Of a DNA stretch of 64,000 nucleotides, positions 21,991 to 49,229 are shown in pieces (the stretch's first letter is position 1; every line of letters begins with the position of its first letter). The position numbers and the translations under genes are program-made. The notes beneath the pieces are model-generated. The model saw only the letters and a program-made list of their open reading frames with translations. It was not told the DNA's origin and made no database searches. The stretch is from positions 51,372,797 to 51,436,796 of the forward strand of contig NC_083571.1 in assembly GCF_027579695.1 (NCBI RefSeq), written 5' to 3'. The DNA is from Neoarius graeffei. Taxonomy: Eukaryota; Chordata; Actinopteri; Siluriformes; Ariidae.

Positions 21991-22145
21991 AGGGTCACTC
22001 TAAGTCTGCCCTGGGGGAACAAAAATCATTAGTGAGAGCAACACAGTCATGTGGCTCTCCATCGTCCTCTGTAGGGAGAAGAGAGGCAGAATTCAGAACA
22101 GAACAACATTTCACAATGATGTTAGGCATATCAAGTATGACAGTG

Positions 22146-23322: not shown

Positions 23323-23963
23323 GTCTTTTCAAACTCTACATCTTGCCCTTGGTGAACATGTGCTGTACAATGCAAATCTTTCTCTTTCATATAATCTGTG
23401 TCAACTGATGAGGTGTTCAAGTATGCGAGCTGTACAAGGTGTTTGGGAGTTTGTGTGAGCTGATCTGAGCAGAGCTGCCAGACATACACATACAGGGGGC
23501 TTCCAAACCCATACTGCACACCGCACATTTCACTTACTTCAATAGTTAGTCCATCTGGAGTGGATGTGAGATTTACTTCTAATTTGCACATTAAATCATG
23601 TGCTAACAAATTTACTGGACATGTATGTGAGATGAGGAATGAGTGGGACGTAACTATTCCTCCCTCGCTTTTACATGGGAGGTTGACTGAGAAAGTTTCG
23701 GTTACAGGTCGTCCTGAGATGCCCATCGTCTGAATAGAATTTGAGCTGAGCGGTGGGTCTACTGGAAGTACCCCATGTTGTATCACTGAGTGTCCTGCTC
23801 CAGAATCTACTAAACAGGTTAACACATGCCCACACACAGTGAGGGGCATACAAGGGAGTTTAGAAAAGGGAGTAGTTGTGTATTTTAACAAACTTAATGC
23901 AACTTCAGGTGTATTTATTTGGACTGGTATATCGGGCATTTCTGTGTAGTCTTGCTGTTGCAT
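23289..23963 (-). pseudogene. Retroviral aspartic protease region
   Basis: The frame contains LVDSGAGHSVIQ, the active-site DSG motif of a retroviral protease. Homodimeric folding is inferred from the family. The reading frame is open for 224 codons and leads into the RT frame. Confidence 0.8.
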
Positions 23964-24089
23964 GCAGGTGCTGCTACTAATGTGTTTAACATTATGTGAA
24001 TGCTCCTGTCTATGTGTATGTGTATCATCAGGTGAGTGTGTGTTACCTCCCCTGTTCTCTGTGTGGGGCCCGTTCCCGGAGTCCGCCCA

Positions 24090-25592
24090 TCAGTCTGCTT
24101 TGCTGTACTCCTCACGGGGCTTCTGCCTGTTACTGTGGAGACAATTTCGAGCAATGTGTCCCTTTTGATTGCAGTTGTAGCAGGTTGCACCTTTTATCCA
24201 GGACGAGTCACTCCAGGTTGTCCTGTCTCGGCCCCTACTTTGACCTCTTCCTCCTCTTGTTCCTTTTTCTCCAGGCTGAACAGTCTGGAAAGAGTGAGAG
24301 TGGCGGCGTGTAGATCTTGGTCTCTTTGTGTCGACTTTGTCTTCTCCTTCTCTTTCAGCAGCTTTTCTGCATGCACAGCGTACTGCTCGATCTTGGTGAG
24401 GCTCAGGAGTGCCCTCCACTGCAGCCAGGTTCACGGGTCTGGTCAGGCCACTGTTTTCTCGTGCGTGGCGGTGAGACGGGTGAGAAATGCTGACACCACT
24501 TCTCCATCTTCTTGCTTACACATACTGATCTTAGTCATGTCTATGTTCAAAGGAAAAGCACTATCCAGACGAGCACAGAGAGCAGTGATGGTATCTCTAT
24601 ACTCACTGTTGCCAGCCGCGCTCCAGTCTGGTGTAGTCATTCGCTGGTCAGCTTCCGGCCACTCTTTGGAAACTTTGTTCCAATCTATACCCATCTTGGT
24701 CATGATTAGGCAGCGAAGTTCATGGGTGGTCGGTCGGAATTCTCTGCAAAATATCAACAGTTCGTTACCAAATCTCTTTCCTCCTACCTCTCTCACATTG
24801 GGAAGAGAAGCCATGCTTTCCTTGATATCAGCTGTCATCCAGGGTCTGTGGACTAAAAGCACGCCGTCAGCTCCAGCCACTTCCATCATTGGAAGATGAA
24901 GGACTTCAGACTTTAGGTTACAGCCTTGTGGACCCACTGGTGAGCACGTGGTCAGGTCCAGGAGGGTGTCTTTTCCATCGCCATATGTAAGACCGGATCT
25001 CATGTGTGATGGAGAAGCGAGGGGAGGTGCTGATGCTGGAGGCAGCTGGTAGGCTGGGGGAGATTCCAGAGGCTCAGTTTTTTTTCTTCTTCTCAACTTC
25101 TCCCCCTTTCTGTGGGTGAAGCGCTTGTGGGAATGATGTTCCGCCTTGCTGAGGAGGCAGTGTGTGTTGGGGTGGTGGGGCAGACTCCAGGTCAGGGTCC
25201 ATCTGAAATTTCAAACACTGAGAAGAGGGTGAGAGCCCTGCCTGTCGTTTCTCTCTTTTGTACTCTCTCTTAAGTGTTTCTTCTTTCCATGCAGAAAACG
25301 CCCTCCAGTCCCCTAAGAACTTAACATTATCTGCAGACTCTTCTTTTTCCTTCTGTTTCAACTTTTCTTCTAACTGTCCTATCTGTCTGGGACTAAAACT
25401 GCCCTTCTCAGGGAATTCTAAGTCCTTTACCCATATGTCAAACTGTGCCAAACAATCCTCGCCATACAAGGTTTTCATAAACTGGATGTTTGGGCTGTCA
25501 TAGGAACAGCCAATTCTTATTATAGCACATGTAGCTTCACACTTACTTGCTTTTTTCTTTTCTTTCCCTAACTTACTGTTTCTGTTCCTCAT
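24090..25592 (-). pseudogene. Retroviral gag (three frames)
   Basis: Three consecutive minus-strand frames, 25592-25074, 25096-24443 and 24434-24090, cover gag. The first is charged and ends in a proline-rich stretch. The second contains the capsid-like segment. The third ends with CYNCNQKGHIARNC, a single CCHC zinc knuckle of nucleocapsid. The breaks between frames are small slips, so full-length Gag is not encoded without correction. Confidence 0.75.
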
Positions 25593-26407
25593 TGTACACT
25601 GTTATATCAATAGGTTATGACAACAATGGCTGAGTTTTTATTAGGATCACAAGAAGAACAGGTTGGACTATGTCCAAAAATGCGACACAATAATCCTTTA
25701 GGTGTGTTCTTATTAGTAAACAATTTATCTGACATTTGCCTTAAGCTAAAGTAGGCATCATTTAACACAACAACCTCAAAGACAACTTGCACATGTGTAC
25801 AAAATCTGTTTCTCTGTTTCAGAATTTGGAGGAGGACAGTACTCTGTTAATTCATCAATATTTTGCATGCACACCGGTGTGTCTTTGCGTTTTCGCGATC
25901 GAACCTCTCTATCCCGTTCCCCAGACGGGCCAGTTGTTCACACAGAACAAAGGGAGCAAGATTCAATTCCCACGAATCGCTGAACGTGAATCCGTCGAAA
26001 CACGCACCCGTACTTCCCCTCCTCAAGTAGGCGAGCGATTACCCAGTCGTCACTTAGGCGGATAATTCTCTAACACAACCCAATAAACTACTCGCAGTTT
26101 ATTGTCTCAAAATTGTGTTTTATCCGTTGTCTGCAAACATATTGATGGTACCACAGTTTAGCAGTCCTCCTGGGCTCGGACAAACTTCTGTCCGTCTCTT
26201 ATATCAGTCTTCCTTGACTGGGACAATCTCTGTCCATCTCTTATATCAGTCTTTAAATACTGTTTCCACTAATTTCTTTACACAAGAATGCAAAGTTATC
26301 ACTTACTGGTTCGGTGAGCCCTGACGGTCTGGTCTCTCGTCCGAGTTCTCAGCTCCGCACCGTAGCCTTGGGAGTGTTCCGTCGTCCGAGGATCAGACGC
26401 ATAGGGC

Positions 26408-26427: not shown

Positions 26428-26872
26428 TGTAATGGAAATTTCTAATAAACACTTCAGAGCGCTTAACAGTTGTCTTTTCAGTCATTTATTATAGTAGATC
26501 ATATAAAGATATATAAAATAGGATAGGAAAGAGAAGAATAGAAGAAGACATCACTTCTGATGATGCCGAGAGTACTCGCACTCTGAGTTGTGTTTTAGGA
26601 ATGTTATCTATTATACTCTGAAAGCATTCGCTCACTGCTTGTGTCTTCACGTGATTGGCTCAAGATTTTCTATGAAGCTTTGTTAGAGCGTGCACCTGGC
26701 GTGCGGGTGGATGCGTAGTTATGAGAACTCAGGCACCCTGCTTATCACCACCAAGGTCACAGAAAAGCGATTACAACATAGGAAAAAACATCTTTCTCAG
26801 TATAGGCCACTTGAGCTCAACACACAGAAACACAGAGAATAATAATGTTCATCCATTAAAAATTCCCTCACA
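26428..26872 (-). repeat. 5' LTR of the endogenous retrovirus (minus-strand sense)
   Basis: 445 bp, identical to 19096-19540; followed by the GACC duplication. Confidence 0.95.
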
Positions 26873-26876
26873 GACC

Positions 26877-27570
26877 GAACACAGAACATCACGGAGGAGA
26901 AAGACAGACAGGAAGAGGAACAACACATCCAACAGGCATTAAAAAACTGCCAATATCCACCATGGGCAATTCAAACAGGAAAATTACAGACACAAAAAAA
27001 GGAAAAAACAAACAAACAAGAAAAAACAGAAAAAACAAACCGGGGCTTTGTCACATTACCATACATAAAAGGAGTTACAGAACGCATCCAACGATCCATG
27101 AGGAAATACCACATCAACACCCCGGTCAAACCATACAAGAACCTCCGACAGCTGCTAGTTCACCCCAAAGACAAAATACAACTGGGCAATAAATGCAATG
27201 TCATATATGAAATCCCTTGCCATTCATGCAATAAAGTCTATATTGGTGAAACGGGCAAATGCTTCCACACTTGCAGGAAAGAACACCAATTAGAATGTGA
27301 AAAAGAAACAACAAAAAGACTCACAAGATCCGAAAAAGAAAAAGCAAACCAAGAAAACTTAAAATCAGCCATTTCAGACCACTGCAAATGGCAAAATCAT
27401 ATTATGAATTGGGAAGAGGCCAGAGTCATTCGCGCTGAAGAGAATAGATACCAGCGTTGGATTTTGGAGGCAGTGGAGATACGTAAGCGGGCGCAGAGGA
27501 CTATGAACCGGAATGAGGGAGCGTACGCGCTGTCACACACCTGGAGCGCAGTCCTGGGGCAGCGACCTGA
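26877..27570 (+). pseudogene. Penelope-like element, GIY-YIG endonuclease end
   Basis: Continues the RT frame cut at 19095. After a linker (RGFVTLPYIKGVTERIQ), the frame 27098-27625 gives CNVIYEIPCHSC and NKVYIGETGKCFHTC, the GIY-YIG core with its cysteine pattern. It then continues with DHCKWQNHIMNWEEARVI and NRYQRWILEAVEIRK. This is the endonuclease domain used by Penelope-like elements to nick the target. Confidence 0.85.
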
Positions 27571-27674
27571 CAGCAGGAGGCGTGGACTACCTGTCAAATT
27601 GGGCGGGACGTTCACGCCTCCATAGAGTACATCAGCTGATAAGGCATGTCACCACTCGACATCTGGTGACTGTT

Positions 27675-28147: not shown

Positions 28148-28526
28148 AGGGGCGGCACGGTGGTGTAGTGGTTAGCGCTGTCGCCTCACAGCAAGAAGGT
28201 CCTGGGTTCGAGCCCCGGGGCCGGCGAGGGCCTTTCTGTGTGGAGTTTGCATGTTCTCCCCGTGTCCGCGTGGGTTTCCTCCGGGTGCTCCGGTTTCCCC
28301 CACAGTCCAAAGACATGCAGGTTAGGTTAACTGGTGACTATAAATTGACCGTAGGTGTGAATGTGAGTGTGAATGGTTGTCTGTGTCTATGTGTCAGCCC
28401 TGTGATGACCTGGCGACTTGTCCAGGGTGTACCCCGCCTTTCGCCCGTAGTCAGCTGGGATAGGCTCCAGCTTGCCTGCGACCCTGTAGAAGGATAAAGC
28501 GGCTACAGATAATGAGATGAGATGAG
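28148..28526 (+). mobile_element. tRNA-derived SINE with 12-bp target duplication
   Basis: Same family as the copy at 15297, with head, A- and B-box-like motifs, L2-like tail and TGAGA repeats. ATCAACTGGCCT is duplicated at 28136-28147 and 28527-28538. Confidence 0.9.
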
Positions 28527-29127: not shown

Positions 29128-29830
29128 GAAAACATGAAAAGGTGAAGACGCATTAATCCAAAAGAAGATGCAAAATTTTATGTGAGCAATGGAAGGGACA
29201 AAGTGGGACTCGATGTAAAATACATTAATGTCTTCAAAGGTCAGTTGAATCCTCTGATTTTTTCATTCATGACAAAACTTTAAATATGTCACCTTACTTT
29301 TTGTGAGTTATTTGTTGTGTGTGTTAACTAGGTCATGGCATCTTCACTACCACTCCATTTGCAAAAGGTGACTTCCTGTTGGAGTATCGAAGTGAACTAA
29401 TAAGCAAGCAGACAAGCGAGAGGAGACGGAGAATATACCATGACTGCCTTAAGGTGTTCATGTTCGAGTTCCAATTTAATGGGACACTGTGGTGGTGTGT
29501 TTTATGTTATTATTTCATCCAATCAGAATTAAATGTCATGTTGCTCTTGGTTTACTGAAAATGCAAGTGTTGTTGACAGAAGGCTCTTAATTTAGGCTAA
29601 TTAATACTGCCCAACTATGTGTTACTTGTGCTTTTGTAGTGTTGATGCAGCCAGTGAGGATGGGTCTCTTGGAAGACTTGTTAATGATGACCATATAAAC
29701 CCTAATGCCAAGATGAAGTACTTGAGTGGAAGGGAAGCCCCATCTGTGTCTATTTGCTATAAGAGACACAAGTCCAGGGGAGGAGATCACCTATAATTAC
29801 GGAGACTCAGACTGGCCATGGAGATGCAAG
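29128..29830 (+). pseudogene. KMT5A-like SET methyltransferase domain (three exons, frameshifted)
   Basis: Exons 29128-29239, 29332-29491 and 29640-29830 have GT/AG borders. In frame they encode NPKEDAKFYVSNGRDKVG, HGIFTTTPFAKGDFLLEYR, VFMFEFQFNG, CVDAASEDGSLGRLVNDDH and, in a shifted frame, HLCLFAIRDTSPGEEITYN and YGDSDWPWRCK. These are the SET blocks of KMT5A (SETD8)-type lysine methyltransferases, including the RLVND and EEITYNYGD cofactor and active-site segments. Near 29722-29728 the sequence lacks two bases (or gains one), breaking the frame. Upstream of RRINPKED an in-frame TGA follows ATGAAAAGG, so the start is also unclear. Confidence 0.75.
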
Positions 29831-30627
29831 GTGATCAGATGTTTACTTTGTGGAATTGATAGTTCTTGTATTAGATTTATTTGTACTTAATGTCATTGGC
29901 CTGATGTTTGTCAATAAATTCTTCAGAAACCAGGAGGAATGTCCACAGAGGGTCAACATGGAGAGGTACCACATACATCAGAGCTTTCTAGGAGTGCTCA
30001 GAAGGTATCAGCAAGTCGGCGGCAAAAAAAGGCATCTACTGGTGCATCAGCTGGTTGTCTAAAAGGCTTCGATAGAGTAAGTGACATTTTCATACAAGAT
30101 AAACGCAGCTGCACTGTCGCATGCATGAAACAGAAATGACGTGTTTGGTGGGTTGTAGAACTACATCTACTGGATCTGTTAGTTTAATGTGTATAGTAAG
30201 TTGTATATAGTAAGTCAAAATTACAAGCTTATAGTTTTCGTGGTCATTTGACCTGTTGAGTGCCTAAAACAGTGTTTTTTCCCCACATAATATTACACAG
30301 GGAACAACATGTCTTCAAGATATTTATGATATCTTATTTTTCTTTAATGCAGGGTCTTGATGAGGAAATGCCTCAGCAAGGTTCTGAGACCACAAATTCC
30401 CCATCAAAAGCTGAAGATTTTGAGGTATGTGTATAATAAGTTATGTTACATCTGATGGTTGGGGACCCAGTCACTCGTAGATATAGTAGGTATATCTTCA
30501 TAAAAGAGAGATTCTCCTCAGTATTTTGCATTCTGTATCTTAATAAATTATCTAATGAGGATCAAAGCAAACTTTTCCTCTCATAATTTTTGTGAAAAGG
30601 TGGATTCTTAGTTTATTCAATTCTTAA

Positions 30628-31225
30628 AGGAAAACTCTGGAGTGAAATGCTTTTTAGGTCCATTTTTGCATTACTGGCAGTGCATACGTTGAGTTGCTAC
30701 CACAATCACGTCAATCGGATGTGTTTTGAGAAAATTCGTTTTTTGTGATTTCAACCGGAAAGCACTAACACGGCAGTGCCCGGGGCATGTCTTTTTGCCG
30801 ATACGATTCCCACTGGAAATGCACAATGGGCTCGACACTTGACTTTTACGGACTGTCCACTGAAGATGGCGTCTGAGGAAGCCCAACTTCAGGTAAGGTC
30901 ACTGGCTTTGTATTTACTCTTCTACACACACTATCCGTGCACTTGCAGAGCCAGGGACACTTCGTTTTGTTTGTAGGAACCCTCTGCTCACTTCCACAGA
31001 ACTGTCATGTTGTTTTGAGCTTTGCAATGGTTTTAAAACTAGCGTTTTGTATCGGCAAAAAGACATGCCCCGGGCACTGTTGTGTTAGCGCTTTCCGGTT
31101 GAAATCACAAAATACGAATTTTCTCAAAACACATCCGATTGACGTGATTGTGGTAGCAACTCAACGTATGCACTGCCAATAATGCGAAAATAGACCTAAA
31201 AAGCATTTCACTCCGGAGTTTTCCT
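30628..31225. mobile_element. Palindromic MITE with TTAA duplication
   Basis: Inverted arms of about 175 bp (30628-30801 and 31045-31225) begin AGGAAAACTC and end GAGTTTTCCT. TTAA flanks both sides (30624-30627 and 31226-31229), as for piggyBac or Kolobok elements. The 240-bp centre contains ATGGCGTCTGAGGAAGCCC followed by CAG/GTAAGG, which looks like a short first coding exon with a donor. Confidence 0.85.
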
Positions 31226-31430
31226 TTAAATATACTCTTAAGTGGTACATTGCCAGTACCTGTGTATTTATTGTCCCTCTCCTCCATGGTTTATCTGCTT
31301 CAGATGATGACTGAGGGGAACCAGATTCAGACAGCTGAGGGGAACCAGATTCAGACAAGTTCAGTACTTAGTCCACTTGGCAGAGTTGGAAAGGTAAATT
31401 AAATTCAATGTGCAGATTAATGACAATACT

Positions 31431-31432
<2 letters not shown>

Positions 31433-31502
<70 letters not shown>

Positions 31503-31588
31503 GTTACCTGAGTGTGATATGATTTATATGGACAATGGTATGGAAGGACATCCTCATCACATACTTCTCAAAGTGTAGGTCACTGCAA

Positions 31589-31657
<69 letters not shown>
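31433..31657. repeat. Two (TG)n microsatellites
   Basis: TG runs at 31433-31499 and 31590-31657, within an intron. Confidence 0.95.
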
Positions 31658-31659
<2 letters not shown>

Positions 31660-32155
31660 CAAGCTGTGAACCACCCAAATGTGACTTAGGAGGTCCATAC
31701 AGTTAATTAGGACCTTCCTGGTGGGGTCGATGGTGGCATTACTTTAGTTTTTAAGAATACCTGGACACCCTGCATTTGATCTGTGTTAGTTTAATGTGTA
31801 TAATAAGTTATGTTACATCTGATGGTTGGGGACCCAGTCACTAGTACAACCCCGATTCCAAAAAAGTTGGGACAAAGTACAAATTGTAAATAAAAACGAA
31901 ATGCAATACTTTACAAATCTCAAAAACTGATATTGTATTCACAATAGAACATAGACAACATATCAAATGTCGAAAGTGAGACATTTTGAAATTTCATGCC
32001 AAATATTGGCTCATTTGAAATTTCATGACAGCAACACATCTCAAAAAAAGTTGGGACAGGGGCAATAAGAGGCTGGAAAAGTTAAAGGTACAAAAAAGGA
32101 ACAGCTGGAGGACCAAATTGCAACTCATTAGGTCAATTGGCAATAGGTCATTAAC

Positions 32156-34823
32156 ATGACTGGGTATAAAAAGAGCATCTTGGAGTGGCAGCAGCTCTCA
32201 GAAGTAAAGATGGGAAGAGGATCACCAATCCCCCTAATTCTGCGCCGACAAATAGTGGAGCAATATCAGAAAGGAGTTCGACAGTGTAAAATTGCAAAGA
32301 GTTTGAACGTCTCATCTACAGTGCATAATATCAAAAGATTCAGAGAATCTGGAAGAATCTCTGTGCGTAAGGGTCAAGGCGGGAAAACCATACTGGGTGC
32401 CCGTGATCTTCGGGCCCTTAGACGGCACTGCATCACATACAGGCATGCTTCTGTATTGGAAATCACAAAATGGGCTCAGGAATATTTCCAGAGAACATTA
32501 TCTGTGAACACAATTCACCATGCCATCCGCCGTTGCCAGCTAAAACTCTATAGTTCAAAGAAGAAGCCATATCTAAACATGATCCAGAAGCGCGGACGTC
32601 TTCTCTGGGCCAAGGCTCATTTAAAATGGACTGTGGCAAAGTGGAAAACTGTTCTGTGGTCAGACGAATCAAAATTTGAAGTTCTTTATGGAAATCAGAG
32701 ACGCCGTGTCATTCGGACTAAAGAGGACAAGGATGACCCAAGTTGTTATCAGCGCTCAGTTCAGAAGCCTGCATCTCTGATGGTATGGGGTTGCATTAGT
32801 GCGTGTGGCATGGGCAGCTTACACATCTGGAAAGACACCATCAATGCTGAAAGGTATATCCAGGTTCTAGAGCAGAGGTCACCAACCCGTCGATCGCGAT
32901 CGACTGGTCGATCTCGGAGGCTTTCCCAGTCGATGTTGGGGGATGAGGAAAGAAATTGGAAGATTATACAGAAATACACTGCAGTATATCTGATTGGCGT
33001 TCATATTACATGTCTTCCGATAGGCCCACTACAGCTTCCCCCTCTGTGTCGCAGGGTTCTTTTTTTTTTTTTAACTCCTGCTGCTTACGTCTTGCGTCTC
33101 TGAGCGTCGTCACCATGGTGATAGCCTCGCAATACAGTTCAGGGTTCTCCACGAGGGGTTTTAGAGGTGCGGGCCGCCCCCCTTTCTGTGATTCCCGCCC
33201 CCATTTAATTTCTGCCGCCCCTTTACAAAAGGAAGCATGATATTGCCTATAAAACTGTGAGGATATAACCTGGCTGTCAGTGTTACTGTAGCTCTTGAAG
33301 TGTTTCCGCGGAGTGGTGGATCGGACTCGAGCCTGGCATGAACCGCTCCGACGCGCTATAATGACACCAATCTATCACCAGCCAATCAGGAGACTTAATC
33401 AAACGCATCCCCCGCCCACCAATCTATCACCAGCCAATCAGGAGACTTAATCAAACACATCCCCCGCCCACTCGTGTCCGCGTCTGAGACGTTGAATTTT
33501 CACAGAAGTAGGGGAGAACATGACTGAGGTAAGACTGTGTGATAAATTAACGAACAAGAGAGGAATTTCAACATATAGGGCTCAAGTTTGTTACCGTTAA
33601 ATAAGCATTGCTTGTACAGTAACGTTATGTTGTTACAACGCTGACCCACTTTTAACGTGCCGAGTACCGACTGTAGCCGCTAACATGCTAATTAGCTTGC
33701 TGTCAAGTTTTTCCTTTGTCGAGCTTTAAGCGTAAGGTCATGGATGTTACTGCTGCTTGTTCCTGCCGTAATATGATACGTGATATGAACCTAACTATAA
33801 GGCACTCACTGACCGTGTTCAGTCACAGCCATCACATTGACTTGAGTTGCGTGATGAACTGTAACCTCTGTAGCATGACAGCAGTCATTGGTAGTAGCAT
33901 CACTGCAAGTTCATATTTGTCTTTATTGTGTATGTATGGTTAAAGAAAATCAGTTCATGTTGAATTGAAGTTGTCATTTTGTCACTTAAGTTACAATTTG
34001 TGATATATCATCACTGTTGTGTTGTAATTTCAGTTGACAATTTCCATTTTATGTTGCTGTGAAATTAATTAATTTAGTGTTACAATACAAACAAGACAGT
34101 GCAACTGATGTTAACAGTTCAGCTTTCTCATTACAATATTATTAATTGATTAATAACAATCTGAGACATTGGTAGTTCATTCATTCTGCTCACTACTGAT
34201 ATAGGCCTATATATTTTTTGTGTATAGTTAATTTCCATTGTATGTTGTACTGAAATTAAGTCATTTAGTCAGCTCTCACAAGAAATTAAAAAGTTGGACC
34301 AGGGTCTTAAATCTTATTCAGTTAAAATTAGGCTAAATAAAAAGCCTCAACTTGAAACAGTCTAGTCTGGATTTCTTTTTCTGTCAACGCTTCAAAGGGT
34401 AGATCTTGCTTGCCATCTAGGCAGAGGTTAGGGATCTCGGGCATAAAAAGGTTGGTGACCACTGTTCTAGAGCAACATGTGCTCCCGTCCAGACGACGTC
34501 TCTTTCAGGGAAGACCTTGCATTTTCCAACATGACAATGCCAAACCACATACTGCATTAATTACAGCATCATGGCTGCGTAGAAGAAGGGTCCGGGTACT
34601 GAACTGGCCAGCCTGCAGTCCAGATCTTTCACCCATAGAAAACATTTGGCGCATCATAAAACGGAAGATACGACAAAGACCTAAGACAGTCGAGCAACTA
34701 GAATCCTACATTAGACAAGAATGGGTTAACATTCCTATCCCTAAACTTGAGCAACTTGTCTCCTCAGTCCCCAGACGTTTACAGACTGTTGTAAAGAGAA
34801 AAGGGGATGTCTCACAGTGGTAA
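32156..34823 (+). pseudogene. Tc1 transposase, DD34E, split by hAT
   Basis: A start at 32210 gives MGRGSPIPLILRRQIVEQYQ, followed by the HTH region and LWSDESKF (first Asp). The frame is interrupted at 32872 by a hAT and resumes at 34473 with FQHDNAKPHTALITASW (second Asp) and SPIENIWRIIK (Glu). The spacing between second Asp and Glu is 34 residues. After removing the hAT and one 8-bp duplicate, the frame looks open to the stop at 34821. The insertion is therefore probably the main inactivating event. Confidence 0.85.
32873..34464. mobile_element. hAT element with perfect 8-bp target duplication inside Tc1
   Basis: Ends CAGAGGTCACCAACC and GGTTGGTGACCACTG are inverted partners. TTCTAGAG is duplicated at 32865-32872 and 34465-34472. 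Sub-terminal 'gtcgatcgcgatcgactgg' is typical of this family. A 51-bp unit ('caatctatcaccagccaatc...') is tandemly duplicated at about 33369-33470. No transposase is recognised, so it is probably non-autonomous. Confidence 0.9.
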
Positions 34824-36394
34824 ACATGGCCTTGTCCCAACTTTTTTGAGATGTTGTCATGAAATTTAAAATCACCTAATTTTTCTCTTTAAATGATAAA
34901 TTTTCTCAGTTTAAACATTTGATATGTCATCTATGTTCTATTCTGAATAAAATATGGAATTTTGAAACTTCCACATCATTGCATTCCGTTTTTATTTACA
35001 ATTTGTACTTTGTCCCAGCTTTTTTTAAATCGGGGCTGTAGATATCGTAAGTATATCTTCATAAAAGATAGATTATCCTTAACATTTTGCATTCTGTGTC
35101 TTACTAAATTGTCTAATGAGGATCAAAGCAAACTTTTCCTCTCCTAATTTTTGTGAAAAGGTGGATTCTTAGTTCATTCAATCCTCAAATATACTCTTAA
35201 GTGGTGCATTTCCAGTGCCTGTGTATTTATTGTCCCTTTCCTCCATGGTTTATTTGCTTCAAATGATGACTGAGGGGAACCCGATTCAGGCCGCTGAGGG
35301 GAACCCGATTCAGGCCGCTGAGGAGAACAAGATTCGCCTCAGCAGAGATGGAAAGGTAAATCAAGTTCCAAATCTGGGAGATCAGCGGGTCTAGTTCCAA
35401 AGCTAGCTTCAGCTCAATCAGCTGATCTCTGGAGTAAACAATGCGAGCAGCATATCCGATGGGAAGTGGAAGTGAAAGTAGACCTTCCAACATGAAAAGT
35501 AAATAAAAACTCTCTCTACGACCAACTTTAGAGAGGGCATGGCTTCAAAAAGTTACTACAGTACTTTCAGAGGGGAAAAAAGGAAGAAAGTTGTATAAAA
35601 GTAAGAAAAAGACGCGAAACAAGCCAGAGCAACTGCAACAGGCTGCGTGCATGGTGCCTAATGCTGCCTAATGACAATACTTGTGGCAAAATTTGAAGTT
35701 CCAGAGGTTCTGAGACCACAAATTTCCAAATATTTTGAAGAGGTATATCCTCATGAAAGATAGATTTTCATCAGTGCAATCTGTATCTTTTTTGAAAGTG
35801 ACTGCTAGTTAACATCTTATTGTGCCACATTTGAGTCACTGTTTCATACTCGTTCCGTTGTCTGACAACAGTAACTGAAAAACAAACAGATTAAGACATT
35901 CTTCATAGAATTTTAAAAGTTATCTTGCTGCATCTAGAAAAGTTCTTTTCTTGATTTAACAACATCTAAAATAAAACAGACAGTAATCACTGTGGTATTT
36001 TTTTAAATTGTCTGCTCTTGTTATCTATTTTAGATAACTGAAAATAACCAGAATCAGTTCACTAGTCCAAGTGAAATGGATCCAGTTGTCAACAGTGGAA
36101 AGGTAAATTGCTTGTCACGTTGATATTGGATTGAAATGTATTGGCTCTTCTAGGACTGTGTAGATGTCAAAATGTGAATGTGAAATATTCTGCCACTAAA
36201 ACTGTTTCACAAAAAATTAATGTTGCCATAAAATTTTGCCATCAGTGTCAAAATCATCGCCTTGTGTGCACAACAGTATCCTCCTTGGACAAGTGCATTC
36301 AGTGCATAGGACCTGTATCCTCCTTCAAGTGGCTTGGCTATAAATGCAAAGGTGAGATATTCAGTGAATTTGTACAGTGTGCAGCTAAGGGCAG

Positions 36395-36970
36395 TGGGTG
36401 GATATACACTCATTTGGCAGTTCATTAACAAAACCTAGCTAAAACTAATGCAGTCTAATACAGCAGTCCTGCAGTAAATTCTCTTTCATGAAGGTTAGTG
36501 TTTTTGCTGAAACAGTTTTAGAGAGTTTCAACTGTGTGATTATTTTAGAGGACAGCATTTGTATTGTGCTGTATTGTGTTATACTGACAGGTGTTTATTA
36601 CTTTGCCTAATCCATTTACATCAACTAGTGCAGGGCCCGGTCAAAACGTGTCTTTTATCTCACTAATAGTTCAGCATTCAATTTGATAACTATCACCATC
36701 TAATTTCCATATTTCATGAAATTTCCATTTCCACAAATCTAAAAGGATTGTTGTGTCACATTGACTTGCCAGTGTATTAGGTACACCTAACTAAAACTAA
36801 TGAGGTATAACAGAACGGGCCTGTAATAAACCTCCCTTTGTGAGGATCAAAATACAGTTTTTATTGGATCTGTTTGACAGAGGTTTCTGTTTATTTTAAT
36901 GGTTATTTTAGAGGCTCTTGAACTCTACTGGTATACTGGGGTGTGTTCCTAATATTTTGTTAACCTTATT
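36395..36970. repeat. Two neighbouring copies of a TATTAGGTACACC repeat family
   Basis: A left copy (about 36395-36605) and a right copy (about 36766-36965) share 'cctaactaaaactaatg' type starts. The right copy ends near 'ggtgtgttcctaatatttt', the inverse of its start. A short DNA element is likely; class undetermined. Confidence 0.5.
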
Positions 36971-37384
36971 TAATATAAATGGGATGGACAAAATCTACCG
37001 CTATTAAACAGATTCATTAAAAACTTAACAGTGGGATCTGTGAGGTTGCCATGCTTGAGGTTTTCCTGAATCTACCTTTGAATTACTCTTATGCAAACAT
37101 TCATATCAATTATGTATCTCTTTAACAGTGATTTTTTTTTTTTTGCTGTTTTGTTTATTCCAAATTACTGCCAACTTAAATAGACCAACAGAGTTAAAAA
37201 TAATATATTCAAATGTGTTACAGTTTGTTCAGGCATCTGGCATAAATCCTGCCTCAGACAAATTACGAATGAGAACTTCCACCACCTGTCACAGGTGAGT
37301 ATCCACTTAAGGGTTCTTGAATTTCTAAACTGTCTATAAAGTGTCCATCACTAGCTAAAATAATTTGTTTTCTCAACATTTCAG

Positions 37385-40300
37385 GAGCAACAGCTTTCTA
37401 AGGCTACATCCACACGACAACGGCAACGAGATTTTTTTTTTTTTAATATCGCGTCCACATGGGCAACGGATCAGTAAAATTTCAGGTACATATGGCAACG
37501 CAACACTTGCTGAAAATGATGCAATACACATGCCACACCTCTAGGTGCGCTGTAAGACGGTCCCGTCGGAGACACCAGAACAATAGAAGAAGGGGTTTAC
37601 GCATGCGCATAAACCCCTTTTTCTGTAGCATCAGCCACTTAAAGTTTTGATTATTAATCAGTAGCGTAAAATAGTATCTATTGTCTAAGACACTTATTTA
37701 TATTTAATATTAAAACGTCTATGTAAATTAATACATAGAAAGCCTGGCCAGGCGCTGAACATTCTTCTGCCTTCACTTTAAGAGAAATTCAGGGCGAGCA
37801 TGAGCCTAGCTTCTTCCGTGTCACTCACCCTGTCACTGTCACACGCACACACCTTCTGCTCGTTTTTTGAATGGAGACGCGGAAAGAGGAATGAATGGGG
37901 ATAGATGGAAGCCGGTACGCCAACATTCTGATATCCTCCAGAATTCTTTAATGGTCCAGAATAAATTGAATGCTACACGTTGATGGATTACTTTGTTGTT
38001 CTACGCCCTTTTTGAGGAATGTATTGTCGGACTTAAACCAACATCTGAAGAGGTGAGATCGCTCCTTTTTTTTTCTCCTTTTTTTCCTTTTTATTTGTTG
38101 ACAACTCGCATCAAGTTCGTTACACTTCTACCCGGCGTGAAGCACTCACAGTCATGTGGTTGTGACATCATCGTAAACAAATCCGTTCTACTCATCCAGA
38201 TGAGTTCGCAACGGCACCGTTGCCAGATTTTTCCACTCTGGAACCCGTTCTCAAAAGATTTCATTTTGGGGCACCCAAAACGCCGGTGCCGTGTGGACGC
38301 CAGGTCGAAATGATAAACAATTTTATCAGATTCACCTGAATCCGTTGCCATGTGGACAGGGCCTAAATGTTCTGGGGATGAACCTCTGTCAGATCAGGAT
38401 AGCGCATCACATTCAGAACTGGATCACGTATCAGATGATCTTCGGAACGTGTTCTGATGAGGATTGCATACCAGACTCTGAGTCAGAAAATGAGGACAAT
38501 GAAGATTCAGATGCAAGCATCCCCTTTCTGCCTCATCAGATGAAAGCTAAACAGATTCACATAAAACCAGTAATACCAGATGATGGGACATCTTATGGGT
38601 CAGATACAAGCATCTCAGTTGTGCACAGCACAACTCTTGAAGATCACATGGTTTTCAGTGCTGCTGAAACATCAGAATCATCAAATTCTATCAAAAAGTT
38701 ATCAAAGGAAAAGCCACAGGATTGAGCAGAGCGTAATAACCAAGAATCAGCATATCTGACAAGTAATAGAAATTACTGTTACATTTGTGGTAAGCCACAA
38801 AGTAAGATTTCCCACCACTTGAAAACACACACTACACATGCTGAAATTGTACATGCTTTTACACTCCCTGAATGCTCAAAAGAGCGTAAAATATTATTAG
38901 AGAAAATGAGGAATAAGGGAAACTTTAAACATAACACTGCAGTTTTACAAGGTGGAACGGGATCACTGAAAGTGAAGAGAAGACCAAAGGCTAAAGCAGT
39001 GGGAGGAAGGTTTATTCACTGTATACACTGCCAAGGGATGTACCTTCGGAAAGAGCTCTGGAGACATGTCCGCAGATGCCCCTGCAAGCCAGAAAATGAA
39101 GATTTGACTAAAGAACCTGGGAGAACCAAAGTACTGGGTTTGGCTGCTGCTCTAGAGTCTGCATCCTGTCATCAGATCTCAAGTGGAGTGTGGAAGCTCC
39201 TCACTGCCATGAAACAGGATGAGGTTGCTTCAGTTGTGCGAAATGACTTTTCTGTTATTCAGTTTGCCCAGTCACTGTACAACAAACAGGGACAAGACCC
39301 TACAAAGTATGAATACATGTGACAGAAGCTCCGTGAAGTTGGGCGTTTGTTGCTATGTCTGCGCACAGAATTCTCAGTTCATAACGTGGAAGAGGCTGTT
39401 AAACCTGCTAACTTCCAGAGAGTTGTGCAAGCAGTGAAGAAAGTTTCAGGTTTTGATGAGGAAAAACATTCCTACACAACAAAAAGCCTTGCACTGAAAT
39501 TAGGACATACACTACACAAACTCTGTGACATCATCCATTGTCGGGCCCTCATGGCAGAAGATGAAGAACTGATCAAGTCCACTGATGTATTCAAGAAATT
39601 GTACAGTTCCAAGTGGTCCGAGTTGGTGTCTCACAGTGCCTTGAACACACTGAGCGATGCAAAGTACAACAAGCCATCAACATTACCCTTCACTGAAGAT
39701 GTTCAGATTCTTCACCGGTACCTTAAGGAAGCTGCAGAAAGTGCCTTTTGCAACTTGAAGGAGGAAGCCACTGCTCAGAACTACGCTCAACTTGCAAAAG
39801 TTACACTTGCTCAAATCATTGTGTTCAATCGGAGACGTGCTGGGGAAGTTTCAAAAATGCGCCTCAGAAGTTTTTATGAAAGAGACAACACAAAGCTCCA
39901 TGAAGATGTTGCCATGGGGTTGTCAAAGACACTGCAACTATTTCAGCCGTGTCAAAATCATGGGAAAAAGGGGAAGAAAGGTTGCAGTTCTGCTCACCCC
40001 AAGCATGGTGGATGCTCTCTCACTACTGACCAGTAAAAGGACTGAGTGTGGTGTTTGTGAGACAAATGTCTTCCTGTTTGCAAGACCCAAATCAGTGACC
40101 AATTACAGAGGACAAGATTGTTTGCGTGTTCATGCAAACCAGTGTGGGGCAAAGCACCCTGAGCGCCTGAGGTCGACACAACTTCGGAAACATGTGGCCA
40201 CACTCTCAAGTCCTTAATTTAAAAAATAACGAACTTGACCAGGTTGCAGATTTCCTGGGTCACGACATCCGTGTTCACCGCGATTTCTACAGATTACCAG

Positions 40301-40405
40301 TTCCCACAACACAGCTGGCCAAGATTTCCAAGCTGCTTTTGTCAGTGGAGAAAGGACATCTTTCCAGCCTGCAGGGGAAATCACTGGATGAGATTGAAAT
40401 TGAAG
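37385..40405 (+). pseudogene. Zinc-binding and tyrosine-recombinase domains of the SET-recombinase unit
   Basis: The exon begins at 37385 and is split at once by a Harbinger-like MITE (37402-38363). It then encodes an acidic stretch (SDEDCIPDSESENEDNED), CYICGKPQSKISHHLKTH and IHCIHCQGMYLRKELWRHV (two zinc-like motifs), and a recombinase core. That core has an RRRAGEVSKMRL box-I arginine, LRSTQLRKHVAT box II and LGHDIRVHRDFYRLP with the GH and probable nucleophilic Tyr. Breaks: a frameshift near 38450, a TGA at 39320-39322 (probably from an Arg codon), a slip near 39947 and a one-base loss near 40207. It ends at donor 40405|GT. Confidence 0.7.
37402..38363. mobile_element. Harbinger-like MITE with TAA duplication, inserted in an exon
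   Basis: GGCTACATCCACACGACAAC at the left is partnered by GTTGCCATGTGGACAGGGCC at the right. TAA is duplicated at 37399-37401 and 38364-38366. It is 962 bp with no transposase, and interrupts the recombinase-unit exon 14 bases after its splice acceptor. Confidence 0.8.
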
Positions 40406-40936
40406 GTTTGTGCAGAAATTAGCGCTTGCAGATATTTTCTGAGAATATTTATTTGTTTTTTTCTGAATATTAATTTAGAGGCACATGGATGCTTTAGAAC
40501 AGTGATCACCAAACTTTTCCAAGCAAACAAAAGGTCCAAATAAAAGCCAAAGTCTACAGCTCAGAAATACAAACATAAAAGCCTATAATAAGATTGGGCA
40601 AAAATTCAACATTATGGTTTAATGGCTCTCAGTTGTATTGTGTTAACAGCATCATACTGTGTAATAATTTTACTAATGTTATTGTTATCCAGATTAATAT
40701 TTCAATTGTAATGACCCAAATTATAGAGCCATCGAAGTCCTGATATTTTTATGATGTTAATCTGTGTGCACAAATGATTAAATCCTATCTTGTCCACACA
40801 ACATAATGACAGGTCAATCACAAGTGGACAACATTACGTATACTACATAGATTGGGCTAAAATACTATTGCCAATATTAAGTTATGAATTTTTTTGCTAA
40901 GCTGTTCATGTGAATTGTACTAATGCCATTTCCTAG

Positions 40937-42418
40937 ACGAAATTCCATTCAGTGACACTGACGCCAAGGAAGTGAGAGCGAATCCGATGACAGTGGCACA
41001 GCATTCACGGCATCAGAGTGTGGGACTAGTGAACCTGTGGATGCTCCCTCACACTCTATCACAGAGCAAGTCCATGACATGAGTGATTTTGGTAAGTTAC
41101 CTCACTTTATAGTTGTGTTTCTGTTGATAATTTTTTGCTCATTAAAAAAACTTTTGTCAAATTATGTGTTTGGCAGGAACAGTGTCATCTGTTACATCGA
41201 CAGTAACTGAGACTGTCCCTCTGTCTGAAGGTAAGGCAAGTTTGATTGTAAAGCACCTTTACAGAAGACACAAAAAGATAATATTAAAAGCAAAATGCAA
41301 ATAGAAATTGCAAAAAGGATAAAAGATAAAAATAATGTAAAATGGAATAAATATAGGACTAGAAAACAATATTGCAGTTTCAGTACAGTGTATGATATAT
41401 ATATACAGTATATGGGTGCCCCAATTGTCTTCTACTTAAAACACATCACAATACAGCCTCCTAAACTAAAATTTTAATTTAATTTGAAAAAAAAAAAAAA
41501 GGCAGTAGCAAACCACACCACATCTGTACAACAAGTGATCCCAATTAATAAAGTAGATGACTGTCAAACTGTCAAAAAAGATTTTGGCACTTTAGATGTT
41601 TAGGTTCTTATCCATCATGCAGTACCATCAGTGAGGTGTCTTGTATGACAGCAGCCCCAAACATACAGCCAGATTCATAAAGCATCATCAATCTGGGATT
41701 ACATGACGAGACACAGTGCAGAGACACAGCTGTGCAACTTCTAGAGGTACCTGAAAACTGTGTGCAGGTGTACTAAGGAGAACTGATGCTGCTGTAGTGG
41801 TGCCAGAGATTGGTTTATAGGTCTTTTTCTGCTTACTGCACCTTGTATAGAATTAAGTGTTGAATTAAAAACTACATGCTATGCATTGTTTTTGAAAGCA
41901 TCCTCACTGTACTTTAAGAGCTTTGTACAGTGCTTAATGTACAGTACTTGTATACCTTAAAGTCAGCTGCAGCTAATATGAAGACAGCCACATCTAGGTG
42001 TAAAATCAATAAAGTGAGTAGTCAACTGAAAATTAAAAATAAAAAAAATCACAGAAACAAGTTAACAGAAATCTGTGGCATTAGTTCAACTAAGGTTGTG
42101 ATTGCTCCAACTGGCCAACTCATTGTGTTTTGTGTGATATTTTTTCACTTTGTGTATTTACCAGGACAAGACACTGGTCAAGAACATGAGTCCAGAAGAT
42201 TGCCAAAGAAACCGTGGTCTAAGGCTGAGGTTGCTGCAGTCATGCGGTATTTCAGGGATCACATAAGTAAAGGAAAACTGGCCACAAAAAACGAATGTAG
42301 TCATTGTAAGCTGGCAGAAGACCCTGTTTTAGAACAACAAACAGTGCAAAATATAAGGGACTTTGTCAGAAACCGAGGAATAGCTGCAAAGAGGCAGTCA
42401 CAGAAACAAAAGCTGTAA
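40937..42418 (+). pseudogene. C-terminal exons of the SET-recombinase unit
   Basis: Three exons, 40937-41091, 41177-41230 and 42165-42418, with GT/AG borders in phase 1, encode an acidic/Ser-rich stretch and then KKPWSKAEVAAVMRYFRD, ECSHCKLAEDPVLEQ and NIRDFVRNRGIAAKRQ up to a TAA at 42416. I recall this last module as a conserved C-terminus of fish proteins with the recombinase-like domain; its function is unknown. A single slip near 40972 breaks the frame of the first exon. Confidence 0.6.
41231..42164. other. Intron; no other feature
   Basis: AT-rich sequence between the last two exons, with an A-run at 41487-41500. No repeat family recognised. Confidence 0.5.
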
Positions 42419-44323: not shown

Positions 44324-44626
44324 TGTAGCAGTTCATAGGGGTGGAGCACAGAAAAGACGGCAGGCCAGAATTAAGTTCAACAAGAAAACTCTTTATTTAG
44401 TACTTTTCAGTAACGATATTCACTCTCTCTCACACACACACGAGTCGTCAGGTCAGGGAGAGAGCTTCCTTCCTCTGCTCTCTCTCTCCTTATATAGGGC
44501 GCGGTCACTGGGGAAGAGACACAAACATAGATTAACCAACATCAGGTGCAGTGATTCTGCCACTTACCTTCCCTGACTCCGCCCTCCGGTCACAGACCGA
44601 TGCTTGACCACGCCCCCGCTGCCACA
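44324..44626 (-). repeat. 3' LTR of the Gmr1-like element
   Basis: 303 bp, TGTAGCAG...GCCACA. A minus-strand TATA box (CTATATAAGG) lies near 44492-44501. On the internal side, a purine-rich GGGCGGTGGGGGGTA (minus strand, 44627-44641) is the likely polypurine tract. Confidence 0.9.
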
Positions 44627-44639
44627 TACCCCCCACCGC

Positions 44640-46174
44640 CCGACTCAGGCCGGGCAGCTGTCCGGCCTGCAGCTGACTCCCCCCCCGATGGGAGAGGAAG
44701 TCCGCCACAACCATCTGCGCCCCTGGCCTGTGGACCACCTTGAAGTTAAAGGGCTGGAGTGCCAGATACCAACGGGTCATCCACACATTGGCATCCTTCA
44801 TGCGGTGGAGCCACTGGAGGGGCGCGTGGTCTGAACAGAGGGTGAAAGAGCACCCCAGGAGGTAGTAGTGGAGGGCGAGGACCACCCACTTGATCACCAG
44901 GCACTCCTTTTCAATGCTGCTGTAGCACCCCTCACGCACAAACAGCTTCCTGCTTATGTACAAGACGGGGCGGTCCTCCACCTCCTGGGACAGAACGGCC
45001 CCCAGCCCTCTGTCCAACGCGTCCGTCTGCAATGTAAAGGGGAGAGAAAAGTCAGGGGAGTGTAACAGTGGCCCCCCGCACAGTGTAGCCTTCTCCTCAG
45101 AGAAAGCCCACTGGCATTGCTCCGTCCACTGGACCGGATCTGGTGCCCCCTTTTTAGTCAGATCAGTCAGCGGGCTGGTGACATCCGAATAATTAGGTAT
45201 AAACCTACGATAGTAGCCAGCCAGCCCCAGGAACTGTCTCACCTGCTTTTTGGTCTTGGGCCTTGGGCAGGCCACAATTGCTGCTGTCTTGTTAATTTGG
45301 GGACGCACCTGCCCGTTGCCCAAGTGGAAGCCCAGATACCGTGCTTCCACCCACCCAATCGCACACTTCTTCGGGTTGGCTGTGAGACCCGCCTGTCTCA
45401 GCGACCTAAGGATGGCCCTCAGGTGTTGCAGGTGCCGCTGCCAGTCATTACTATAAATAATGATGTCGTCTAGGTACGCGGCGGCATAGGTGGTGTGGGG
45501 GTGGAGGACCCTATCCATCAGTCACTGAAACGTAGCGGGCGCCCCAAACAGCCCAAAAGGAAGTGTGACAAACTGGTGTAAGCCGAACGGTGTGGAAAAG
45601 GCCATTTTTTTTCTCGGGATAATGGAGTCAAGGGGATCTGCCAATGACCCTTTGTCAAATCCAGTGTTGAGTAAAAGCAAGCCGTGCCTAGTTGATCAAG
45701 TAACTCATCAATACGAGGCATTGGGTACGCGTCGAATTTAGACACCGCGTTGACTTTTCTATAGTCCACACAGAACCGGACCGACCCGTCGGTCTTGGGT
45801 ACCAAGACCACTGGGCTGCTCCAGTCACTGTGGGACTCCTCGACGATGCCCCTTTCGAGCATGGCCTTGAGTTCTTCCCGAACCACTTTTTTCTTGTGTT
45901 CAGGTAACCTGTAAGGGTCGGTGCGGCCGGGCAGGGGTGAGAACACGTCCGAAAACTCGGTCTGCAACTGGGCGACCTCCACAAGTTGGGTCGGGGAGAG
46001 GTGGTCTCCACAGGGGACCGGAGAGGTACGCGATGCCAGTGTTCCCTTTTGAATCTCTGGCCCCAGCTCCGCCTTCTCCGGAACCACTGACACCAACGCC
46101 ACGGGGACCTCCTCATTCCAGAGTTTGAGCAGATTGAGGTGGTAAATCTGTAGCGCCCCACCCTGTCCCTTCAC
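44640..46174 (-). pseudogene. Gypsy RT and RNase H
   Basis: Frame 46174-45518 encodes a linker (YHLNLLKLWNEEVP), an aspartate-rich approach (TEFSDVFSPLPGRTD) and RT blocks SDWSSPVVLVPKTDGS, RFCVDYRKVNAVSKFD and YSTLDLTKGHWQIPL. A slip near 45605 and a TGA at about 45523 follow. Frame 45518-44532 then gives AAYLDDIIIYSND (YLDD catalytic motif), FLGLAGYYRRFIPNYS and RNase H blocks LQTDALDRGLGAVLSQ and SSIEKECLVIKW. The enzyme is recognisable along its whole length but broken. Confidence 0.9.
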
Positions 46175-46751
46175 CTCACCTTGTAGTCAACGTCCCCGAC
46201 TCGCCGTGTGACCTCAAAGGGTCTTTGCCACTTGGCGATTAATTTGGAGCTCGATGTGGGCAACAGTACAAGAACTTTATCTCCCGGTGCGAACTCCCTA
46301 AGGCGCATACCCCTGTCGTACAGGCGGGTTTGCCGTTCTTGGGCCTGCCGCAAATTCTCCTGGGTTAGGTGTGTGAGTGTGTGGAGTTTTGCATGCAGGT
46401 CCATAACATATTGAATTTGATTTTTACTGGGTGAAGGTCCCTCCTCCCAATTTTCTCGCAGCACATCTAGAATGCTGCGTGGCTTACGCCCATATAACAA
46501 TTCAAATGGGGAGAACCCCGTAGAGGCTTGGGGGACCTCTCGCACTGCAAATAACAAGGGTTCGAGACATTTATCCTAATTACGTGCATACTCACTTATG
46601 AATTTTTTAATTATATTCTTGAGGGTGTGATTGAACCGTTAAACTAAACCGTCCGTTTGTGGGTGATAAACGCTGGTGCAGATCGGCTTAATAACCCATA
46701 TAGTTCGTTCAGTGAACGTGACATAAACGAGGTGCCTTGGTCAGTCAGAAT

Positions 46752-47782
46752 TAGACGTCTGCGCAGGACAGAATTTTCAGTTCCGCTCCCACCCGCGCCT
46801 GCCATATTTTGTCCCGCTCCCGCCCGCAAATCCCGCATGATGCAGACGTTCACGTTATTTCTCATGAAAGTTCTTGTCATTGGCTTGGGGAATTAAACAT
46901 GCTGAGCTTAGCTGAGCTCTCCACTGACCGATCCTTCACCTAGCGCACGTAGCGAGGGTGCGCGTTGCCAGGCGGCATGCGCAGCTGAGGCTTTACAGAG
47001 ATACCCAACACACCTACCAAAATCTACAGTGGATATTAAGAATATTGTACATTGCACGTAGCTTATGTCACTCCTCACATTTACATTCTAGGAAATACAA
47101 CTAGGCCTATAAGAAATTAAGATAATTTAAAGACACAGCGTGATGGTGCCCTGCCCCCTACTTTTCTTTTTAAAGCAGCACTTACTTCTGAAGCACTATG
47201 AGCTTCACTAGAAGAGCTCTGCTCTTCTGCCATGATCGGAGATCTCAAACACGGAAGAGCGGAAAGGAATCAGAAACGTACGCGAGATTAGACCACATCC
47301 GCAAATTTAGGCATCTTAAAATGTTTTTATTAATGCCAAATAAAATATCCAGCACAAATTATATATGATAGACTGGCAGCGGGGGCATGGCCAAGCAGCA
47401 GTCTGTGAATGGAGGGCGGGGTCGGGGAAGGTAAGTGGTGAGGTCATTGACACCTGATGTCAATTTGTGTGTGTGTGTGTGTGTGTTTGTTGCAGGGATG
47501 GAGTATAAAGGGAGGGGGAGAGGAGAGAAGAAGCTCTCCCTGACCACAACACTTGTGTGAGTGAGTGAGATAGAGAGAAAGAAAGAAAGCTGAAAAGCCG
47601 AATAAAGTGCGTGTGTGTAAATGCAAACTCTCGCCTGCCGTGCTTCTGTGCTCCACCCACACCGGGGTTTACTACAGTGGTGCTGAAACCGGGGACTGTA
47701 GTAAACCCCGGTGTGGGTGGAGCACAGAAGCACAGCAGGCGAGAGTTTGTGTTTACACACACGCACTTTATTCGGCTTTTCA

Positions 47783-47823
<41 letters not shown>

Positions 47824-48188
47824 CTCTCTCTCACGCAAGTGTTGTGGTCGGGGAGAGCTTCTTCTCTCCTCTCCCCCTCCCTTTATACTCCATCCCTGCA
47901 ACAAACACGCATACAAATTGACATCAGGTGTAATGACCTAGCCACTTACCTTCCCCGACCCCACCCTCCATTCACAGACTGCTGCTTGGCCACGCCCCCG
48001 CTTCCACATACACATAAAATTTTATAAATTATTAATTTATTTTAAACACGTTTTTAGTTAGCGGGACTGCAGCTTATCACCTCTCCCGCCCGCTCCCGCA
48101 TTGTGCACTCCCCCTCCTGCCCATGCCCGCAATGAGCTTTCAAAATTTGTCCCGTGCCGCGGGACTCCCGCGGGAGTGCAGGGCTCTA
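46752..48188. mobile_element. hAT element with perfect 8-bp target duplication
   Basis: GTCAGAAT is duplicated at 46744-46751 and 48189-48196. The ends are TAGACGTCTGC and GCAGGGCTCTA, followed inward by 'cccgctcccgcccgc' repeats on both sides. No transposase is recognised. It hosts the inverted LTR pair at 47374-48008. Confidence 0.75.
47374..48008. repeat. Inverted LTR pair joined through a primer-binding site
   Basis: LTR 1 (47374-47676, plus sense, TGGCAGCGG...TTTACTACA) has a TATAAA box near 47512. It is followed by G, then TGGTGCTGAAACCGGGGA (47678-47695), then C, then LTR 2 in reverse (47697-48008). The flanks TAGAC (47369-47373) and TACAC (48009-48013) look like a 5-bp target duplication with one change. 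The LTRs are related to those of the Gmr1-like element (shared 'gcgggggc.tgg.caagc'). A (TC)n tract at 47787-47832 lies in LTR 2. Confidence 0.8.
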
Positions 48189-49044
48189 GTCAGAATCTCT
48201 TTCGGGATTCCAACTCGGGAGATGATGCGGAAGAGCACTTCCGCAATACTGCGTGCTGAGATATTGCGAAGAGGCACTGCTTCCGGGTAGCGTGTTGCAT
48301 AGTCCACCAGAACTAAAATAAAGCGGTACCCTCGTGTTGACCGATCTAATGGCCCGACGAGATCCATCCCAATTAATGGGAGAGGGCGCAAAGGCGCTTT
48401 TGGAATGGCCGCTGGATTTACAAACTGGCATTCGCGGCACGCCGTACACCACCTACGGACATCGCCGCAAATCCTTGGCCAATAGAACCAGGCCATTAGT
48501 CGGGCTAGTGTCTTATCCTGCCCTAAGTGTCCAGCCATGGGATTAAAGTGCGCTGCCTGGAATACCAACTCCTGGCGGCTCTTTGGAATCAAAAGCTGCG
48601 TGACTTGCTCTTTAGTCTGAGTGTCCTGTGTCACTCAGTATAACCTATCCTTCATGATAGAAAAATAGAGGAAGGACGGGGTGGCGTTTGGCTGGAGCAT
48701 TTGACCATCGATTACTCTCACTTGGTCAAACGCATGCCGCAGAGACTCGTCTCACGATTGCTCTAACGGAAAATCCACAAGGAATTCCCTGAGAGAGGGA
48801 GGAGGAGCCTGCTGCTCCTCACTCTGACGCAGAGATGACGTAGACGGCTCTGTGACAGCTGCTCCCGCCAAAGCGACACCGGGACCTCCCCCTGCTAAAC
48901 TACGGCAGGACCCACTCTTCACTAGATGGCTCATTAACTCCCCGAATCCCGGCCAATCAGTCCCCAAAATTATCGAGTGGGTGAGGCGAGGATTAACCGC
49001 TGCCTTTACTCAAGTTTTCCCCTCGAAAAATAATGTGGACCGAC

Positions 49045-49225
49045 ACCAAGTCAAGTCAACTTTATTGTCAAATATGCTGTACATGCTCGACATACAGCAC
49101 AGATGAAAGTTCAGTCCTCTCTGACCCATGGTGCAAACAGGCAATGCAATAAATAAAAATAGAATAATTGAAAAAAACAAACAAAATAAACAGTATAAAC
49201 ACTCTAGATAGGAACAGGTAAGTGT
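49045..49225. repeat. Dispersed teleost repeat inside the gypsy element
   Basis: It begins 'caccaagtcaagtcaacttt' and includes 'attgtcaaatatgctgtaca'; a short relative lies at 15257-15290. It interrupts the region downstream of protease. Confidence 0.6.
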
Positions 49226-49229
49226 AGCT

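Follow-up and report, generated by a model that had tools for sequence, protein, structure and literature searches.

A single spliced gene that joins a KMT5A-like SET domain to a tyrosine recombinase (YR) was found at positions 29128-42418, forward strand, of a 64,000-nucleotide (nt) stretch of the genome of Neoarius graeffei (Siluriformes, Ariidae; contig NC_083571.1, positions 51,372,797 to 51,436,796, hereafter the window), fish DNA that is rich in transposon remnants. The locus is probably a defunct member of a family of mobile DNA with a gene that encodes a SET lysine methyltransferase, zinc modules and the recombinase in one protein. Such a family would be a vertebrate mobile element with chromatin-writing and DNA-joining enzymes in the same protein, and the idea that a transposon rewrites chromatin for its own movement could be tested directly, natural copies with all modules predicted being present in, for example, Centropristis and Pungitius. 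It would also account for a set of fish genes that currently go by 'KMT5A-A-like', 'SETD5-like' or 'uncharacterized', labels that can mislead fish epigenetics and gene counts.

The gene comprises twelve exons with splice sites and phases compatible throughout, and its modules follow one another in the order KMT5A-like SET domain, repeat linker, C1-like zinc module, zinc finger, YR and basic C-terminus; the conserved blocks are named SET, C1, ZF, YRN, YRC and CT. Exon 1 (29128-29239) codes for the N-terminal part of the SET region, and exons 2 (29332-29494) and 3 (29640-29830, with the motif GEEITYNYGD) for the first and second halves of the domain; taken as separate open reading frames (ORFs), exons 2 and 3 both score above the Pfam SET cut-off (4.4e-5 and 6.2e-6, respectively). 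Linker is encoded by exons 4 (29927-30076), 5 (30353-30424, of the repeat type) and 6 (36034-36102), the first two together matching the linker of the N. graeffei protein P0130 at 94.7% over 76 amino acids (aa). The C1-like module is divided between exons 7 (36246-36351) and 8 (37224-37294), jointly 78% identical to the Centropristis protein P0001 over 59 aa. Exon 9 (37385-40405) encodes an acidic stretch, a zinc-finger-like region (38771-39090, with the patterns CxxC...HxxxH and CxxC...HxxxxC, recognised from the sequence and by the ZF profile) and the YR, over which it reaches 88% to P0001. It is followed by an acidic linker in exon 10 (40937-41091), further linker in exon 11 (41177-41230), and the conserved basic CT domain with the stop in exon 12 (42165-42418), which reaches 83% to P0008 over 84 aa. 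The peptide predicted across the 37294/37385 junction (HHLSQ before it, EQQLSKCSG after it) has the counterpart PHQSQEQQLSKCSE in P0001.

These results bear out a first-pass annotation of the window, which had proposed about a dozen exons of one orientation and matching phase, a SET domain and a recombinase in one transcription unit, and a conserved basic C-terminus: the phases match, the 37294/37385 junction is mirrored in P0001, the fusion recurs in relatives, and the SET domain and the recombinase form a single coding unit at this locus. Both of its zinc-like motifs are there, recast as the C1-like module of exons 7 and 8 and the zinc-finger-like region at about 38771-39090. The gene parts lie where that annotation had placed them, but the broken state of the copy had gone unnoticed.

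The window copy is a pseudogene. Its damage totals three TGA stops (29143-29145 in exon 1, 38723-38725 and 39320-39322), five frameshifts (near 29724 in exon 3, 38455, 39946, 40207, and 40961 in exon 10) and a 962-bp insertion (37402-38363); exon 9 is disrupted by the insertion, two of the TGA codons and three of the frameshifts. The insertion, which splits the recombinase exon, has TAA at both flanks and partly complementary ends (18/25 in the best ungapped comparison), and is classed as like a miniature inverted-repeat transposable element; its TAA flanks fit Harbinger-type targets. The intron that follows exon 5 holds Tc1-like remnants (32147-34823), recognised by eye. Since this copy is dead, function was judged from its relatives.

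Of 7992 candidates scored in a search with the YR part, 816 proteins reached E<=1e-3; given these matches and the two SET ORFs above the Pfam cut-off, chance is excluded, at the level of sequence, as the source of the recognised parts. Examination covered the best 120 of the 816, all of those listed, with P0001 (1213 aa, 1048 bits, 88% identity) as the top match. SET and YR stand in one predicted protein in 53 of these 120, and 48 of the 53 have the complete SET-C1-ZF-YRN-YRC-CT architecture. The fusions come from 33 teleost species (hand count), ranging from Paramormyrops to percomorphs; the 27 aligned fusions from which the module profiles were built fall within the 53, so that the counts characterise this set without testing it independently. 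A third search, with a frog SET domain as query, gave further fusions. Proteins of the frog Ranitomeya variabilis (P0243, 950 aa) and of an eel (P0241, 1062 aa) both show the order SET-ZF-YRN-YRC-CT with C1 undetected; across the full-length fusions, C1 was recognised in 45 of 55. When the SET part served as query, a length filter of about 223-710 aa shut out most fusions; among the 120 listed of its 281 hits, 16 have CT but no YR and 9 have some YR. Judging from these predicted proteins, the pairing of SET and YR is real and reaches beyond the window, and homologues are not always separate genes, as they would have to be for the first-pass annotation to fail: fusions recur in diverged lineages and in one frog. 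Five stretches of viral contigs scanned with P0001 fit a pattern, none of them encoding a relative.

Other arrangements of these modules were also observed. P0242 of Xyrichtys novacula (729 aa) has SET-C1-ZF and a partial YR, with a tail matching PF13359, a DDE transposase family; the tail is perhaps a transposon nested within the gene model. The frog proteins P0180 (Dendropsophus) and P0198 (Hyla) carry the same kind of SET ahead of a P2RX7_C domain, and P0180 has a KRAB box before the SET as well; the two represent another architecture of the same SET clade. Setdm, a male-specific SET gene of the extra microchromosomes of gibel carp, is known here from the title of a reference in a partial text (PMC9945428, reference 83) and is possibly akin to the SET-YR family; it is not named in PMC9439954.

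In PDB searches the SET part matched KMT5A best (2e-24), then 4ldg (2.5e-17) and KMT2A (1.7e-13). The Asn N105 and the Tyr residues Y142 and Y144 are invariant in the 55 full-length fusions, and a long branch separates the family from human KMT5A. The earlier designation as a KMT5A-type SET domain holds in that KMT5A is the nearest match, but the NHS motif is not kept, its second position being Asp in 55/55. The only NCBIfam matches of the SET part, to the model for a bacterial protein that contains SET, lie far below cut-off and are read as a shared domain. The SET of the fusions is a probable lysine methyltransferase.

The core motifs of the recombinase, noted earlier as a box-I Arg, a box-II Arg/His, and LGH and Tyr motifs, could all be located in exon 9: box I, NRRRAGE (39827-39847), conserved in the fusions; the Lys of GKRGRK (39966-39968); the Arg-Lys-His of box II in LRKHVAT (40185-40193); and LGHDIRVHRDFY (40255-40290), in which the nucleophile Tyr is encoded by 40288-40290. 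With catalytic positions assigned by motif and not by superposition, Y1022 and K914 are kept in 55/55 fusions and the box-II Arg (R987) and the His of LGH (H1013) in 54/55, the box-II His being present in 52/55. A structure model of the YR of a homologue matches XerH, Cre and topoisomerase IB, by which the catalytic domain is predicted to have the tyrosine-recombinase fold, and the YR of the fusions is a probable DNA recombinase. Sequence searches of Pfam, NCBIfam and PDB assigned no family to this part, no DUF3504 or integrase family of Pfam matched at E<=5 in the 11 proteins scanned, and Rfam gave no match across the window.

The two enzymatic parts have diverged jointly. Distances in SET and in YR correlated with r 0.845 among 33 fusions, where 2000 permutations reached at most 0.41, and with r 0.801 among 37 rows (permutations at most 0.37), values to which the host history common to both parts adds. 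The first set consisted of 37 of the 53 fusions of the YR list, hand-chosen to omit isoforms, 33 of which were used for the correlation; the second consisted of 36 of 39 non-redundant fusions plus the window copy, with P0032, P0062 and P0093 left out. Species and contig labels in these and the following comparisons were entered by hand from the search tables.

Diverged lineages coexist within single species, as with P0039 and P0078 of Vanacampus (SET 64%, YR 59%) and comparable pairs in Nothobranchius and Parambassis. Near-identical full-length copies also occur in Vanacampus on three contigs (25.9, 31.4 and 18.7 Mb), where the proteins are identical over SET (100%), at least 99.5% alike over YRN and at least 99.1% over YRC; one of these copies is annotated as NCK2a. 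In Metynnis, copies on two contigs are 100% alike over YRN and YRC at the protein level, and in medaka, models lacking YR share a SET that is 100% alike across three contigs. Near-identical pairs of Nothobranchius and Pimephales were left out, as each may represent a single locus assembled twice. At the protein level this is the pattern expected of a recently active mobile family, and the family is old and probably mobile; where the first-pass annotation had offered 'mobile or domesticated', near-identical copies on several contigs favour the former over the latter.

One relationship between hosts is at most a lead for horizontal transfer. The Paramormyrops protein P0057 and the Carassius protein P0060 are 84% alike over SET, 72% over the linker, 89% over YRN and 92% over YRC, close to the values for Leuciscus and Carassius (86, 67, 89 and 93.5%); Brachyhypopomus and Clarias are less alike (72, 31, 72 and 85%). 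Contamination or old paralogy may account for P0057, because it has no contig listed and five other mormyrid copies (Brienomyrus P0036, P0051, P0146 and P0147, and Paramormyrops P0064) are unlike it.

In the mechanism that we propose, ZF and CT, together with C1 in most members, would direct the protein to DNA of the element and to chromatin, and the recombinase Tyr would cut and rejoin DNA and so move the element, probably via a circle as has been proposed for Cryptons. SET would methylate either a histone close by or the complex, and chromatin at the donor or the target would thereby allow the step to proceed. Targeting or silencing of its own insertion sites, the example given in the first-pass annotation, would be a hypothetical role, and H4 Lys20 specificity a hypothetical property. 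Because exon 7 finishes and exon 10 begins in phase 1, skipping exons 8 and 9 preserves the frame; a junction of exon 7 to exon 10 is present in the predicted proteins P0124 (Sander) and P0144 (Maylandia), among 12 looked at of the 16 SET-CT proteins without YR, the others of the 12 appearing broken or joined differently. Such skipping would give a SET protein without recombinase, which, at a guess, could regulate movement. A wider version of this scheme is put forward tentatively and is itself doubtful: a SET-YR lineage of fishes and frogs would have passed whole between distant hosts, with an active methyltransferase needed for movement, marking the chromatin of element or target (for example to couple excision and insertion with replication), and with the recombinase-less splice form as regulator.

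Several observations weigh against the reading of the locus as a dead copy of a mobile SET-YR family. Among the 120 listed YR hits, 67 are without SET and 39 of these have only ZF-YRN-YRC; 91 of the 120 listed hits of the length-filtered SET search are SET or SET-C1 only; and the nearest known relative, P0130 (SET 93%, linker 95%), is a 239-aa model without YR. The DNA of the element is known from the window copy, relatives having been compared as proteins, and every fusion is a protein predicted by a pipeline. Nearest neighbours by SET and by YR agree in only 21 of 33 cases, several branches being weak. The His of the HxxR motif in the R-H-R-Y tetrad, its position assigned by motif, is Thr in 54/55 fusions, Asp replaces the NHS His in 55/55, and the structure model of the homologue is of moderate confidence (pLDDT 71.5, pTM 0.39).

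That the fusions are all predicted proteins is what would be expected if prediction programs had joined two adjacent genes; this is very improbable, as module order and junction recur in 53 proteins, exon phases match in the window, and SET and YR diverge jointly. The changed NHS motif would suit a mobile YR family in which SET is a mere passenger or a protein-binding module and no active methyltransferase, an account that we hold to be rather unlikely, N105, Y142 and Y144 having stayed invariant in 55/55 while SET is no more than about 53-68% alike from one lineage to another. Long-lasting, intron-bearing and conserved full-length proteins in many species, many of them annotated as genes, would fit a host gene family instead, one that arose when a KMT5A-like gene acquired a recombinase on a single occasion and that fishes retained and duplicated for a host function, with no mobility of its own. 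We judge this distinctly improbable: the recombinase residues are kept, whereas Crypton-derived host genes have lost theirs (partial text of PMC3212892), diverged lineages stand beside near-identical copies on several contigs within one species, some copies bear the names of unrelated genes (NCK2a and PAK1), and the window copy has decayed.

Further features accompany the gene. Linker-like sequence occurs twice as a direct repeat on the forward strand (D3; 31228-31354 and 35187-35313, 92% alike), the first copy resembling by eye the repeat unit of P0001; linker repeat units vary in number, with two in P0001 and five of a double unit in P0013. Arms at 30624-30804 and 31049-31229 (181 nt, 96% complementary, 244 nt apart) lie beside this duplicated sequence. 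Pfam C1_1 was found in homologues below the cut-off only. Elsewhere in the window, two copies of a seven-transmembrane-receptor-like gene were recognised by eye (59140-60075, forward strand, and 3623-4631, reverse strand), one open over 311 aa and the other in overlapping pieces. ORFs at 20235-25601 and 44532-50460 (reverse strand) and at 26846-27625, 7211-8001 and 32147-34823 (forward strand) resemble by eye genes of long terminal repeat elements, the end of a GIY-YIG-type retroelement and Tc1-like transposases. One dispersed repeat, present in both orientations at 28150-28497, 14002-14337, 15097-15648 and 62078-62487, yields look-alike ORFs.

Among known systems, KMT5A/SETD8 is the closest to the SET part, being its best PDB match, and the family differs from it by the Asp in place of the NHS His, the fusion to YR and its long branch. 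A survey of zebrafish lists 58 SET genes including setd8a and setd8b, with no mention of the SET-YR family in its available text (PMC2200798). The literature searched, with Repbase outside the search, held no report of SET paired with a tyrosine recombinase. The statement in the first-pass annotation that no such system had been described stands for this pairing, but SET-bearing transposons as such are in print: a SET histone methyltransferase has been described in the oomycete transposons HarbingerS and MuDR (as cited in the partial text of PMC12730594), which differ from the present family in transposase type and hosts.

Like Cryptons, the family has a YR gene without reverse transcriptase in the unit and members in animals, and Crypton-like recombinases can enter vertebrate genes (excerpts of PMC3212892). 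It differs in uniting its recombinase with SET, C1 and zinc modules in one protein, in the Thr at the tetrad His and in matching no DUF3504 at E<=5. According to the same excerpts, which mention neither a SET domain nor a methyltransferase, vertebrate Crypton-derived genes lost the catalytic Tyr and the second Arg, both of which SET-YR proteins keep. With the tetrad His changed, the family is not filed as Crypton, though it may work like one. Retrotransposons with DNA methyltransferases are likewise mobile elements with an epigenetic enzyme of host origin, the differences lying in DNA methylation, in retrotransposition and in their dinoflagellate and charophyte hosts (partial text of PMC5890265). 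SETMAR/Metnase, as described in abstracts, resembles the present family in joining SET to a transposition enzyme in one protein, there a mariner transposase in a host gene of anthropoid primates. In the window the partner of SET is a YR by fold and not mariner, the Tc1-like remnants seen by eye being intronic, and it belongs to a multi-copy family.

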